Positions 17,396 to 53,868 of a DNA stretch of 64,000 bases are shown in pieces. This DNA is from Leifsonia sp. AG29. Lineage in GTDB: Bacteria > Actinomycetota > Actinomycetes > Actinomycetales > Microbacteriaceae. The stretch covers positions 1,922,001-1,986,000 of the forward strand of contig NZ_VMSF01000001.1 in assembly GCF_009765225.1 (NCBI RefSeq). Direction: 5' to 3'. The translations under genes were made by a program, and so were the position numbers. The notes under the pieces were generated by a model, which saw only the letters and a program-made list of their open reading frames with translations, was not told where the DNA came from and did no database searches. Positions within the stretch are counted from its first letter, which is position 1. The number at the start of each line of letters is the position of its first letter.

Positions 17396-17429
17396 CGGGG
17401 ACTGGGCTGACTCCGGACTGCGCTGCCGG

Positions 17430-49686: not shown

Positions 49687-51516
49687 GTGAACCAGTTCGA
49701 GACACCAGCCGTCGTCCCCGCCGACCCCGACGCGAACGCGACCGATCTGCTCGTCGAGCGTGTCGCCGCCACTCCTGACCTGCCGCTGTTCAGCCTCCCC
49801 GAGGGAGACGGCTGGCGGGACGTCACGGCGGCCGAGTTCCACCGTCAGGTCGTGGCGCTCGCGAAGGGGCTCGTCGCCGCCGGCATCCAGCCCGGCGACA
49901 AGATCGGCCTCATGTCGAAGACGCGCTACGAGTGGACTCTGATCGACTTCGCGACCTGGTTCGCCGGCGCCGTGCTCGTGCCTGTGTACGAGACCTCATC
50001 GCCCGCGCAGATCCAGTGGAACCTGTCGGACTCGGGGGCCATCGCGGTGATCCTCGAAACCGCCGAGATGCACGCCCGGTTCGACGAGGTGCACCCCGAT
50101 CTGCCGGAGATCCGGACGGTGTGGCAGCTGCACCTCGGCGACCTGGACAAGCTGGTCGCGGCCGGCGCCGGAGTACCGGACGAGGAGATCGAGCGCCGGC
50201 GGCGCATCGCCCGCGGCTCGGACATCGGCACGCTCATCTACACGTCGGGCTCGACCGGCCGCCCCAAGGGCTGCGTGCTCACGCACTCGAACTTCGTCGA
50301 TCTCTCGCGCAACTCGGCTGTCGCCCTCGACGAGGTCGTGATGCAGCCGGGAGGCGCCTCCACCCTCCTCTTCATCACGACGGCGCACGTGTTCGCGCGG
50401 TTCATCGCGGTGCTCTGCGTGCACGGCGGCGTGAAGGTGGGGCATCAGGCCGACACCAAGCAGCTCCTCCCGGCGCTGGCGAGCTTCAAGCCCACGTTCC
50501 TCCTCGCCGTCCCGCGCGTGTTCGAGAAGGTGTACAACTCGGCCGAGCAGAAGGCCGAGTCGGGAGGCCGTGGGCGGATCTTCCGAGCGGCCGCCGAGGT
50601 CGCCGTCGAGCACTCGAAAGCCGTCGAGGCCGGGTCGGTGCCGTTCGGGCTCCGGCTCAAGTTCGCGCTCTACGACCGGCTCGTGTTCTCTAAGCTGCGC
50701 GCCGCGATGGGCGGCCGCGTCCGCTTCGCCGTCTCGGGGTCGGCGCCGCTCGGATCCCACCTCGGCCACTTCTTCCACAGCCTCGGCATCAAGGTGCTCG
50801 AGGGCTACGGACTGACGGAGACGACCGCGCCCGCCACGGTGAACCTGCCGGGCAAATTCAAGATCGGCACCGTCGGGCCGGCCCTGCCCGGCGTTGCGGT
50901 CCGGCTCGCCGACGACGGCGAGATCCAGATCAAGGGCATCGACGTCTTCAAGGAGTACTGGAACAACCCGGAGGCGACCGCTGCCGCTTTCGACGACGGC
51001 TGGTTCCGCACCGGCGACCTCGGCGCCTTCGACGCGGACGGCTTCCTCAGCATCACCGGCCGCAAGAAGGAGATCATCGTCACCGCCGGCGGCAAGAACG
51101 TCTCCCCCGCCGCTCTCGAGGACCCGATCCGCGCCAACCCGCTCGTCGGACAGGTGATCGTCGTCGGCGACCAGAAGCCGTTCATCTCGGCGCTCGTGAC
51201 GCTCGACACCGAGATGCTGCCGACCTGGCTCGCCAACAACGGCGAGGACAAGGACATGACCCTCGCCGAGGCCTCCGTGAACCCCGCCGTGAACGCCGAG
51301 ATCCAGAAGGCGATCGATGCCGCGAACGAGCGCGTCTCGCGGGCCGAGAGCATCCGCAAGTTCGTGATCCTCGCCACGGACCTCACCGAGGCGAGCGGGC
51401 ACCTCACGCCGAAGCTCAGCATCAAGCGGAACGTCATCCTGTCGGACTTCGCCGACGTGATCGACGGTCTCTACAGCGGGAACGAGAAGACGCAGGGCAT
51501 CTCGCTGGCTCACTGA
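49687..51516 (+). CDS. fadD: Long-chain fatty acid--CoA ligase (FadD15-like)
   Basis: AMP-forming acyl-CoA synthetase of the ANL superfamily. 609 residues, the longer bacterial long-chain form. Seen: the ATP loop YTSGSTGRPKGC, the adenylate motif GYGLTETTAP, the hinge DWFRTGDLG-like WFRTGDLGAFD, and the C-terminal motif GRKKEIIVTAGGKNVSP with the catalytic-lysine region after it. GTG start with GGGAG upstream. From memory it corresponds to Rv2187 (fadD15), again keeping order with the previous genes. Acyl length is unknown. The accessory repeat island begins 30 bases after its stop. Confidence 0.95.
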   Translation: MNQFETPAVVPADPDANATDLLVERVAATPDLPLFSLPEGDGWRDVTAAEFHRQVVALAKGLVAAGIQPGDKIGLMSKTRYEWTLIDFATWFAGAVLVPVYETSSPAQIQWNLSDSGAIAVILETAEMHARFDEVHPDLPEIRTVWQLHLGDLDKLVAAGAGVPDEEIERRRRIARGSDIGTLIYTSGSTGRPKGCVLTHSNFVDLSRNSAVALDEVVMQPGGASTLLFITTAHVFARFIAVLCVHGGVKVGHQADTKQLLPALASFKPTFLLAVPRVFEKVYNSAEQKAESGGRGRIFRAAAEVAVEHSKAVEAGSVPFGLRLKFALYDRLVFSKLRAAMGGRVRFAVSGSAPLGSHLGHFFHSLGIKVLEGYGLTETTAPATVNLPGKFKIGTVGPALPGVAVRLADDGEIQIKGIDVFKEYWNNPEATAAAFDDGWFRTGDLGAFDADGFLSITGRKKEIIVTAGGKNVSPAALEDPIRANPLVGQVIVVGDQKPFISALVTLDTEMLPTWLANNGEDKDMTLAEASVNPAVNAEIQKAIDAANERVSRAESIRKFVILATDLTEASGHLTPKLSIKRNVILSDFADVIDGLYSGNEKTQGISLAH

Positions 51517-51546
51517 GCGGCGCGTTCCCCGGCGGGTCGCTCGCTG

Positions 51547-51723
51547 ATTCGTGCCGAATATCGGCGTGGCCGCCGCGACAGGCATGATTCGTGCCGAATG
51601 TCGGCGTGGCCGCCGCGACAGGCATGATTCGTGCCGAATGTCGGCCGCGCCACCCGTTGCGGCGGCCGCGATTCGTGCCGAATGTCGGCGTGGCCGTCGC
51701 TTCAGGCGACATTCGGCACGAAT
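51547..51723. repeat. Left array of palindromic 13-mers (ATTCGTGCCGAAT)
   Basis: Five copies start at 51547, 51587, 51627, 51671 (read as ATTCGTGCCGAAT) and 51711 (inverted, ATTCGGCACGAAT). Steps are 40, 40, 44 and 40 bases. The first two copies belong to a 40-base tandem unit differing at one position; copies 3 and 4 share 19 and 26 bases of it before diverging. Each copy has ATTCG and CGAAT arms around TGC. The last copy holds the end of the nuclease gene. The array may also act as terminator for fadD. Confidence 0.9.
51671..51723. repeat. 17-bp inverted repeat at the end of the nuclease gene
   Basis: Positions 51671-51687 and 51707-51723 are perfect inverted copies (ATTCGTGCCGAATGTCG) with 19 bases between. 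The hairpin lies where fadD and the nuclease gene converge and could stop both transcripts. Confidence 0.75.
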
Positions 51724-52601
51724 CTGCCCAGGCGCCTGAGGAAGGGAGCCCGATCGCCGAACAGGTCGGAAGCGGTGACGCGCACGACCCGCCAGCCCCG
51801 CTCCTCCAGGAGTTCGCGGCGTTCTATGTCGAGCCGCCACTGGCGGGCATCTGCGCGATGCCCGTCGCCCTCGTACTCGAACGCGAGCCGTCGGTCGGGA
51901 AGGGTCAGGTCCGGGTGGAGGGTCACCGTGCCGTCGCCGACGACGACAGGAGGATTGACCTCCAGCCCCTCCAACCCCAGGTCGCCGAGCAGGAGGCGCA
52001 GCAATGACTCAGGTCGGGAATCAGCGCCCCAGCGAATGCGCGACAGCGCCCACTCCCGGGAGCGCGCTCCCTTGGAATGACTGCACCGTTCCGACGCTGT
52101 CGCCAACTCGGCGACCGTTGCCAGTGCGGGCCGTCGCCGCGCACCGACGAGGTGGTCCCCCGCCGCGACGAGATCCTCGGGGCCGACGACCCCCGACAGC
52201 TGGACCCAGACCTCGGACGGTGCGCAGATCGGGAATCCACCCGCAGTAGCCCGCGACACCGCTTTGAGGCTGTGGCCCACGACCCCTCGTCCGCGCGGCG
52301 GACAGCGCGGGAACGGGACAGAAACGTGCAGGTCCTGCGCCTCCGTGGAGTGCGGGAGGGGCACACCGAGGAGCGCAGCAGCGGTCTGATGACTGAACAA
52401 CGCCCCGCTCGGGAGCCGGTGCAGATACGCGCAGCACAGCTCGCTGACGCTCCGGGGCGCGACGGTGGAGTAGATGGCGTGGAATGGGCGGTGAAGGTCC
52501 GGAGCGCTGAGCCGCCAGGGGTCCACACCGGATTCCCGCGCCTGGGCGGAGGTGAATGGTGTGCCGATTAGGTGCGCCGGAAGGATCGATCGAGTCTGCA
52601 T
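51702..52601 (-). CDS. DUF559 (Vsr-like, PD-(D/E)xK) nuclease domain protein
   Basis: 299 residues. N-terminal part (about 1-95) resembles the AbiEi-type winged helix fused to such proteins in actinobacteria (FTSAQARESGVDPWRL, PFHAIYSTV, GALFSHQTAAALLGVPLP). C-terminal part is a DUF559/Vsr-like endonuclease fold: E198 in SRPESLLR, D231 in LHPDLTLPD, E242 and E244 in LAFEYEGDGHR, then RLDIERRELLEERGWRVVRVTASDL. These are the expected metal-binding residues, so it looks active. The ATG at 52601 is chosen because the longer frame only reads through repeats. The last six residues, FVPNVA, are encoded by one of the palindromic repeats. Arrays flank it on both sides. No partner toxin or methylase gene is near. 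Function unknown. Confidence 0.8.
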   Translation of the reverse strand: MQTRSILPAHLIGTPFTSAQARESGVDPWRLSAPDLHRPFHAIYSTVAPRSVSELCCAYLHRLPSGALFSHQTAAALLGVPLPHSTEAQDLHVSVPFPRCPPRGRGVVGHSLKAVSRATAGGFPICAPSEVWVQLSGVVGPEDLVAAGDHLVGARRRPALATVAELATASERCSHSKGARSREWALSRIRWGADSRPESLLRLLLGDLGLEGLEVNPPVVVGDGTVTLHPDLTLPDRRLAFEYEGDGHRADARQWRLDIERRELLEERGWRVVRVTASDLFGDRAPFLRRLGRFVPNVA

Positions 52602-52721
52602 GGCATCATGGTCGGGGCATGCGCGTATTCGAGCCCCGAGCATCCCGCGAATTGTGGACAACCCGAGATTCCACAAGCAGCCGCTTCTCGACGCGTCGCA
52701 CTTGCTTCGGGGCCCGCCCGC

Positions 52722-52977
52722 CGACATTCGGCACGAATGTCGCAAACCGATGCGACTACACCGACATTCGGCACGATTTTGGGTGAGGGCTGAGCGACCT
52801 CGGGGCGCGTCCGCGCCGACATTCGGCACGAATGTGGGCGAAGCGGAGTGCTAGCGCTACATTCGGCACGAATGCGCGGACTCGACTTCCGACCAGGGGG
52901 CCTGAGGCAAGGCGACATTCGGCACGAATGTCGGGCAAACGCCGCTCGCGGCCTGCATTCGGCACGAATGCAGGCCG
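52722..52977. repeat. Right array of palindromic 13-mers (ATTCGGCACGAAT)
   Basis: Six copies, all in the orientation opposite to the first four of the left array, start at 52726, 52766, 52821, 52861, 52917 and 52957. Steps are 40, 55, 40, 56 and 40 bases, so they form three pairs. The copy at 52766 differs in one base. Arms beyond the core differ but stay complementary: nine-base arms (CGACATTCG) at 52722 and 52913, thirteen-base arms (CGGCCTGCATTCG) at 52949. The array fills the 418-base gap between the nuclease gene and the epimerase gene; no coding sequence was seen there. Confidence 0.9.
52949..52977. repeat. Perfect 13-bp hairpin, last unit of the right array
   Basis: Arms 52949-52961 and 52965-52977 pair perfectly around a GCA loop. 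It is 42 bases after the stop of the leftward epimerase gene and could also terminate it. Confidence 0.8.
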
Positions 52978-53019
52978 AGGGGCGGCGCAGAGGGCGGCGC
53001 GGAGGGCGGCGCCGCCGCG

Positions 53020-53868
53020 TCAGCCCGCGTGGTCGCGCCAGGAGTGGTGCGGGTCGTACCCGAGCACGCGGCGCGCCTTGTCGATCGACAGGAGGGTGTC
53101 GTTGACCCCGAGGTCGCCCTTGAGCGGTACGCCGGGGAACACCTCCGCGACGAGTTCGGCGTTCGGGCGGGACATCACGGTGTCGGCGGCAGCGATGATG
53201 AAGCGATCGAAGCCGGTGGCGTCCCACTCGAGCGCGCGCTGGACGGCCTGAGCGCCGTCGCGTGCGTCGATGTATCCCCAGAGGTTCCACTTGCGCGCCC
53301 GCGGGTCGGCGTCGAAGCCGGGGAACTCGGCGTAGTCCTCCGGGTCCATGACGTTCGAGAACCGGAGCGCCACGATCTTGAGCGCCGGGTCCCAGCGGAC
53401 GAGCTCGATCGCCATCGTCTCCTCGAGGTGCTTCACGAGCGAGTACGTCGACTCGGGACGCGCCGGGTAGTCCTCGTCCACGGGGATGTAGGGCGGTGGG
53501 ACGTCGAACGGGAGGCCGAGGACCGTCTCGCTCGACGCGTAGACGATGTTGCGGATCCCCGCCCGCCGTGCAGCCTGGAACACGTTGTAGGTGACCCGGA
53601 TGTTGTTGTGGAACGTCGCCACATCGCTCAGGATGCCGGGCGCCGGGATCGCCGCGAGATGGACGATCGCGTCGAAGCCCTCGTGCCGATCGTCGACGCC
53701 GAGGATCGCGTCGATCGTCTGCCCGAAGTCGGTGAGGTCGACGCGGATGAATCCCGGGCCCCGCTCCCCGGCCGCGTCGAGGGCGAGGACGTCGTGGCCC
53801 GCGGAGCGGAGCTCCCTGACGACCGTCCTGCCGAGTTTGCCTGATCCTCCGGTGACCGCGATGCGCAT
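53020..53868 (-). CDS. NAD(P)-dependent epimerase/dehydratase family protein
   Basis: Extended short-chain dehydrogenase of 282 residues. Seen: the nucleotide loop VTGGSGKLG (5-13), D43-L45 region typical of adenine contact, HLAAIPAP, the ASSETVLG serine region, and the catalytic pair Y142/K146 in TYSLVKH. The proposed ATG at 53868 follows upstream frame that runs into another gene. It resembles uronate dehydrogenase or UDP-sugar epimerase-like proteins, but no substrate can be named. The gene is convergent with nothing but the repeat array; def lies upstream on the same strand, separated by a hairpin. Confidence 0.87.
   Translation of the reverse strand: MRIAVTGGSGKLGRTVVRELRSAGHDVLALDAAGERGPGFIRVDLTDFGQTIDAILGVDDRHEGFDAIVHLAAIPAPGILSDVATFHNNIRVTYNVFQAARRAGIRNIVYASSETVLGLPFDVPPPYIPVDEDYPARPESTYSLVKHLEETMAIELVRWDPALKIVALRFSNVMDPEDYAEFPGFDADPRARKWNLWGYIDARDGAQAVQRALEWDATGFDRFIIAAADTVMSRPNAELVAEVFPGVPLKGDLGVNDTLLSIDKARRVLGYDPHHSWRDHAG

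Follow-up and report, generated by a model that had tools for sequence, protein, structure and literature searches.

The subject of this analysis is a cluster of short palindromes in the genome of Leifsonia sp. AG29 (G000 below), lying within a 64,000-nucleotide stretch of contig NZ_VMSF01000001.1 (positions 1,922,001 to 1,986,000), which is called the window and whose own numbering is used throughout. Around a nuclease gene, eleven copies of the 13-bp dyad ATTCGTGCCGAAT were found when up to two mismatches were allowed, ten of them exact and one (52766-52778) with a single mismatch, and at the same tolerance none lay beyond 51547-52969; a preliminary description of the locus, made from the letters alone, had given the same count and had likewise seen no further copies in the window. 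The shuffled window gave a mean of 0.91 matches and a maximum of 4, and never reached 11. The orientations reported at that time (four plus, seven minus) are also correct, but the division of the copies around the nuclease gene is five to the left and six to the right, and not four and seven; the fifth left copy (51711-51723, minus) lies in the 3'-terminal part of the nuclease reading frame. The spacing had not been recorded: the copies are paired, 40 bp start to start within a pair. The left array lies between the convergent ligase and nuclease genes (Table 1, in which the ligase and epimerase/dehydratase functions are presumed from the gene family). The dyad copies are part of a dispersed, genome-wide family found in Leifsonia, which resembles the repetitive extragenic palindromes (REPs) of other bacteria.

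Table 1. Dyad arrays, two-dyad units and genes at the locus, in window coordinates.
Feature	Position	Strand	Remarks
AMP-dependent acyl-CoA ligase-like gene (presumed)	49687..51516	+	stop 30 bp before left array
Left array, five 13-bp dyads	51547..51723		starts 51547, 51587, 51627, 51671 (+), 51711 (-); steps 40, 40, 44, 40
53-bp unit, two dyads and 27-bp spacer	51587..51639	+	unit at 51671 begins 84 bp on (eight turns)
53-bp unit, dyads inverted	51671..51723	+	RNA fold z -4.3
MTES_1575-type nuclease gene	51702..52601	-	299 aa from its ATG; last codons cross dyad 51711-51723
Right array, three two-dyad units	52726..52969		starts 52726/52766, 52821/52861, 52917/52957; successive units 95 and 96 bp apart (about nine turns of the helix); 51 bp past epimerase gene stop
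NAD-dependent epimerase/dehydratase-like gene (presumed)	53020..53868	-	stop 51 bp from right array

The unit of the family is made of two 13-bp dyads (ATTYG-NNN-CRAAT) set 40 bp start to start, 53 bp as a whole. Among 1592 Leifsonia dyad pairs having spacers of 17-37 bp, the spacer was exactly 27 bp in 1363, the proportion reaching 54/54 in genome G398, 35/35 in each of G399 and G411, and 19/20 in G412; at least part of the remaining spacers are array linkers. Spacer sequences differ widely between loci and are repeated within arrays, so that arrays appear to grow by tandem duplication. The repetition of spacers, together with the more than 30 dispersed clusters of G000, argues against a CRISPR (clustered regularly interspaced short palindromic repeats) array, cas genes not having been searched for. 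The unit tends to overall symmetry (dyad, 27-bp spacer, dyad), with A/T triplets at positions 20-22 and 32-34 in several clades, and it stands either singly or in arrays. Three layouts were seen. The TGC-loop group around L. aquatica, together with G125, G385 and G226, has paired dyads with A/T triplets between them; L. shinshuensis, TF02-11, CAMFLC and part of G178 have dyads in threes at intervals of about 20 bp; and CL147 and parts of G000 have arrays with a uniform 40-bp step. One stretch of CL147 (L084, 24-476), a genome with a total of 331 ATTYG pairs, has an array in which twelve dyads follow one another every 40 bp, their spacers being similar. Where dyads are mixed, in G398 and G399, ATTTG tends by eye to the outer and ATTCG to the inner side of the unit. 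Flanking bases are mostly C at -1 and A at -2, and by inspection there is no constant tetranucleotide tag.

Searches of the 13-mer in the full genome and in related Microbacteriaceae, as the preliminary description had proposed, showed how far the family extends. G000 carries 135 exact copies spread over more than 30 clusters, and 237 at up to one mismatch, while the pattern read backwards gave none; 37 stretches of this genome, the window not counted, hold 232 dyads in total at up to two mismatches, 34 of them with at least two dyads, one with a single dyad and two with none. A scan of 398 Microbacteriaceae genomes for a unit with any loop (ATTCG-NNN-CGAAT, 27 bp, and the same again) found it in 9 of the 10 Leifsonia sampled and in none of the 388 others, the backward control being zero. 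The wider form ATTYG/CRAAT was present in 23 of 28 Leifsonia genomes, at 3 to 331 pairs each, and was not found in the remaining five (G400, G304, G405, G407 and G415), and a sister dyad, ATTTG-NNN-CAAAT, occurs with the same 40-bp geometry in 13 of the 28. Units with other loops are carried by CL147, L. shinshuensis, TF02-11 and the metagenome-assembled genome (MAG) CAMFLC. Among GTDB species genomes at least 120 stretches contained the unit; of the matches listed, 118 were from Leifsonia and two from elsewhere. One of the two, in Microbacterium sp. 18062 (L077, 6636-6688), is convincing, a single full-palindrome unit with TCA loops and a 27-bp spacer; the other, in a Bacteroidia MAG (L131), is probably due to chance. 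IMG/VR viral contigs yielded no stretch with the ATTCG unit, and in the open literature, subscription papers being outside the coverage, no title or abstract opening on a Leifsonia palindrome family was found.

Relative to genes, the units stand at 3' ends. Genes were called by codon usage with a simple caller that overlooks atypical genes, among them the window nuclease; on this basis 215 sites were divided into 118 convergent, 81 tandem and 16 divergent. Tandem sites lay a median of 28 bp from the stop side versus 106 bp from the start side (p 3e-9), and at 55 of the 118 convergent sites both stops were within 30 bp. When intergenic regions of 20-300 bp from the 118 Leifsonia loci of the pattern scan were compared, five one-dyad regions being left out, 42 of the 67 with at least two dyads were convergent, against 55 of the 392 without dyads (p 4e-16). 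Beside the 215 sites no gene family recurred beyond apparently large common ones (top 25 clusters, by eye). The inverted-repeat score of convergent regions was 21.0 with units, 8.8 without and 5.6 after shuffling, so that convergent regions without units likewise carry inverted repeats above chance. Strong inverted repeats unrelated to the dyad, several of them 60-70 bp long, were seen between convergent genes in L180, L097, L156, L141, L126, L166 and L125, and these are further extragenic palindrome families.

The site between the ligase and nuclease genes could be followed through the genus. The preliminary description had asked whether the locus is absent at the same site in close relatives. 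In a scripted scan of 24 other Leifsonia loci, 17 have the 53-bp unit, with either type of arm, at the corresponding place, 7-20 bp past the ligase stop. Three of the remaining seven loci (L198, L219, L221) lack the ligase end in the stretch, and three (L206, L209, L217) have degenerate or partial versions. The seventh, L218, comes from the unit-free genome G304 and shows by eye a different inverted repeat, AATCGTGCGGT ... ACCGCACGATT, in the same place past the ligase stop. The type of dyad at this site follows the species group, with TGC loops in the aquatica group, TCA loops and a third dyad in the shinshuensis group, and ATTTG arms in G385, G226 and G360. Such shifts at a shared site may offer a test bed for the concerted evolution of a site and its protein. 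Altogether, 786 pairwise site comparisons, 693 of which start from the ligase-nuclease region, found dyads present in 769 and absent in 17. Empty orthologous sites, as sought for a miniature inverted-repeat transposable element, do exist, and the flanks are too diverged for a target-site duplication to be read. Elsewhere in the window, a convergent intergenic region (17396-17429) has no dyad, and the orthologous sites in G125 (L250) and TF02-11 (L140) carry a unit, with different loop types.

Within arrays, distances from unit to unit cluster at 73-76, 83-87, 94-96 and 104-107 bp, with scatter between. Helical phasing was tested on 172 distances of 60-130 bp, similar linkers being collapsed and 39 distances of exactly 80 bp left out. 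At a period of 10.5 bp the G000 distances (n=39) gave R=0.72 with p about 2e-9 and a mean phase 0.16 bp off whole turns, and none of 3000 jitter controls did as well; the other Leifsonia (n=64) gave R=0.39 (best 0.41 at 10.25), p about 5e-5 and a mean phase of 1.2 bp, with 1 of 3000 jitter controls. A linker-based count put the period peaks at 10.75-11.0 in G000 and 10.5 in the others. In the non-uniform arrays, then, the sites lie on one helical face, as those of an operator array would, strongly so in G000 and more weakly in other species.

A periodic A/T content is found inside the unit as well, where 136 single units from other species peaked at a period of 10.0 among eight periods tried. 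The A/T fraction at positions 20-22 is 0.89-1.00 in the aquatica group, in G385 and G226 taken together, in G125 and in type B, and it is lower in the ATTCG units of G360 (0.41-0.86) and at position 20 of G178 (0.44). Complementarity between the A/T positions of the two sides is expected to be 0.5 when only A/T is kept; complementary pairs number 32/53 in G385 and G226, 20/30 in G125, 85/119 in the aquatica group, 15/25 in G000 and 7/10 in G360. The A/T bases are thus kept largely without pairing in several clades, and paired in others.

These features bear on whether the unit acts as a hairpin or as double-stranded DNA. In single dyads the five bases on either side showed no positive covariation across the dyad; one position further out (position 6, G000) the covariation z was 3.1. 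Within genomes, the two halves of the unit were not significantly more complementary than after random re-pairing in 13 of 14 sets (189/2000 for G125). A covariation of spacer halves pooled over genomes had also been considered, and was rejected as an effect of the pooling when the genomes were tested one by one. Double-stranded DNA is favoured over RNA by the near-whole-turn spacing of the arrays, by the keeping of A/T triplets about 10 bp apart even where they are unpaired, in several clades, and by the coupling of halves in only 1 of 14 sets. A symmetric double-stranded DNA site is therefore favoured, with a hairpin function possible in some species.

The explanation to which we give a probability of about 0.58 is that the units form operator-like two-dyad arrays, bound cooperatively at gene ends by a protein on one face of the helix. 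A sequence-specific protein would bind the dyads as an oligomer on that face, and neighbouring complexes would align cooperatively, since the distance between most array units is close to a whole number of helical turns. At the ends of genes, arrays so occupied might for instance block read-through and converging polymerases or insulate against them, or they might anchor and organise the nucleoid. From the geometry, the distribution, the 3'-end position, the helical phasing and, in several clades, the A/T retention, all of which were observed computationally, we infer protein binding at the units and a role for the arrays, and the binding protein would presumably be specific to the genus. The exact inner spacing and the near-whole-turn arrays, with no Y1 transposase found, point to a protein on double-stranded DNA. 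An operator or recognition array had been one of two suggestions in the preliminary description, and helical phasing speaks for the general idea, although not for the nuclease protein as its ligand. A wider proposal, possible but doubtful at present, is a genus-specific chromosome system in which a dedicated, undescribed DNA-binding protein would polymerise along phased arrays, mark gene ends (above all those of convergent pairs) and insulate or organise transcription units genome-wide, the sequence of the site (ATTCG or ATTTG arms, loop type) co-evolving across the loci of a species.

A number of observations weigh against cooperative binding to double-stranded DNA. No binding protein was found, and the genes flanking the sites offered no cis-linked candidate. 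Compared with G000, other species show far weaker phasing, and arrays with a uniform 40-bp step (80 bp from unit to unit), as in CL147 and parts of G000, are off whole turns and were excluded from the test; units arose partly by tandem duplication, and the collapsing of linkers may leave some dependence in the test. The counts of shared sites are biased, most loci having been fetched for containing units. Retention of A/T at positions 20-22 is poor in G000 (0.30-0.57) and CL147 (0.36-0.70), and the A/T pairs are mostly complementary in type B (187/207), CL147 (80/89) and G178 (17/19). In L. aquatica DSM 20146 the coupling of halves is weak but significant (12/2000), and over 50 of 54 L. aquatica units it is weak but real (0.61 vs 0.55, 7/5000), these units having an A/T fraction of 0.93-0.99 at positions 20-22 and a complementarity there of 0.54-0.62. 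Pairing is in excess at some near-centre positions in two type B sets. Inverted-pair units of relatives fold very strongly (three folded, z -7.5 to -11.9), and among 14 distinct sequences of the ligase-nuclease site both members have changed in 15 of 25 possible pairs; such both-sided changes are predicted by a hairpin, but are also produced by a species-specific consensus of the halves.

The last of these points lead to the strongest rival, which nevertheless seems rather unlikely: that the units are miniature palindromes like REPs, or like the REP doublets forming hairpins (REPINs), mobile now or formerly, and that they work at the RNA level by terminating transcription or stabilising 3' ends. 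The dyads would form one long hairpin, and their place after the stop codon would reflect the ends of transcripts. Besides the strong hairpins of relatives, the cross-species covariation at the ligase-nuclease site and the weak coupling in L. aquatica, the closeness of the units to stop codons (a few tens of bases at most) and the raised inverted-repeat score of convergent regions agree with this, and REPs of other bacteria reportedly share the same positions (PMC3733652). However, spacing between units by nearly whole turns has no reason in RNA, the halves go without significant coupling in nearly all genome sets, and A/T is kept unpaired in several clades. In the window, the inverted unit at 51671..51723 is the sole clear long hairpin among three stretches folded, the two in direct orientation (z -1.9) doing little better than shuffles. 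A scan confined to window positions 51300-53200 found no hairpin with a T tract (shuffles gave a mean of 0.8), and Rfam 15 gave four sub-threshold matches in 51400-53100, none above its gathering score. Mobility of the usual kind finds no enzyme either: the Y1_Tnp family (PF01797), which covers IS200 and the REP-associated tyrosine transposases (RAYTs), had no match at E<=1e-3 in any of the 28 Leifsonia genomes, the control search matching 5 of 14 known genomes.

Less probable still, and on balance unlikely, is that the units are preferred sites of gyrase, or of another wrapping protein, like those of the bacterial interspersed mosaic elements of type 2 (BIME-2) in E. coli. Phased A/T would ease wrapping, downstream of genes where positive supercoils gather, which suits the in-unit A/T peak at period 10.0, the near-whole-turn spacing of units and their position at 3' ends. 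In E. coli, gyrase sites are reported to have a 130-bp motif with a G/C variation phased at about 10.75 bp, and cleavage sites to be enriched downstream of highly transcribed operons (PMC6379681). The Leifsonia family is like these reported sites in its phased A/T content and its position downstream of genes, and differs in having a strict dyad and a 53-bp unit and, within the family sample, in having turned up in Leifsonia alone. Gyrase is universal, yet among the 398 genomes the units were seen in Leifsonia alone; the sequence of the dyad is strict, its loop type varying with the species; and beyond the unit the A/T phasing shows no clear continuation (0.0192, the 95% bound from shuffles being 0.0194).

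There remains the nuclease gene, which the preliminary description had cast as the partner of the repeat. In Pfam it matches the MTES_1575 REase family at 1.3e-7, which is under the cut-off of that family (32 vs 38.2 bits), and DUF559 reached only 0.079; the scan was made on a 375-aa reading of the gene. A winged-helix N-terminus, also proposed, was not seen by Pfam at E up to 1. Copies do not cluster beside the nuclease family: one of the four MTES_1575 loci in the genome, the window's own, adjoins dyads, no dyad is present in the stretches surrounding the loci at 746 kb and 332 kb, and about 7 kb separates the 2269-kb locus from its nearest array. Since the copies are dispersed and only this one locus of four adjoins them, the dyad is no companion of this nuclease family. 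Homologues occur in 27 of 28 Leifsonia genomes, unit-free ones included (G304, 51% identity; G405, 49%), and in G410 the adjoining unit is intact beside an orthologue that looks frameshifted. That orthologue (L220, 1495-2512) is read in two overlapping frames, and the match in G401 is also in two pieces. In the window the gene has an array on either side, and in the two L. aquatica genomes a single unit on either side; in G398 (L192, 1513-2665) a gene that is acetyltransferase-like by eye has single units on both sides in the same way, so that flanking is not special to nucleases. A partnership is thus unsupported: what had been named as telling against it, namely copies spread over the genome with no tie to such genes, or repeats at the site in relatives lacking the gene, was found outright or very nearly. 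An element mobilised or bound by the adjoining winged-helix nuclease is largely refuted by these findings and is most improbable; the nuclease is a bystander or neighbour rather than a partner. The 3' end of its reading frame crosses a dyad (window 51705-51723; likewise in L092 and L208), and the protein reads ...FVPNV where the loops are TGC and ...FVTNV where they are TCA; here the DNA site shapes the C-terminus of the protein.

Among known systems, the sites of the matS/MatP, Noc and SlmA type are dispersed short dyads recognised by one chromosome-organising protein, and they are usually single. The Leifsonia units differ from them in having two dyads 40 bp apart and in forming phased arrays at gene ends. 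Palindromes of the REP kind, which are old, common and poorly explained, have mostly been treated as RNA hairpins or as DNA mobilised by RAYTs. Like REPs, BIMEs and REPINs, the Leifsonia family consists of short extragenic palindromes, numbering from tens to hundreds, which occur in pairs and clusters beside 3' ends, for the most part between convergent or tandem genes. It differs from them in its base-exact spacing, in array units set near whole helical turns, in the lack of any Y1 or RAYT match in the 28 genomes, and in its ends, where no GTAG or CGTC tag was seen (flank columns and aligned units, by inspection, with no dedicated test). Di Nocera et al. 2013 reportedly distinguish GTAG REPs, which have RAYTs, from CGTC REPs, which have no dedicated transposase, both lying beside 3' ends (PMC3733652); neither 'Leifsonia' nor 'Actinobacteria' occurs in the main text of that paper. 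The CGTC REPs, as reported there, come close in being palindromic dimers near 3' ends without a dedicated transposase, but they have another tag and other stem and loop lengths, and the fixed 27-bp spacer and the phasing belong to the Leifsonia family. The suggestion of a REP-like element in the preliminary description accordingly holds for position and dispersal, but not for the partner: the Leifsonia family is REP-like in where it lies, and is not a REP of the RAYT type.

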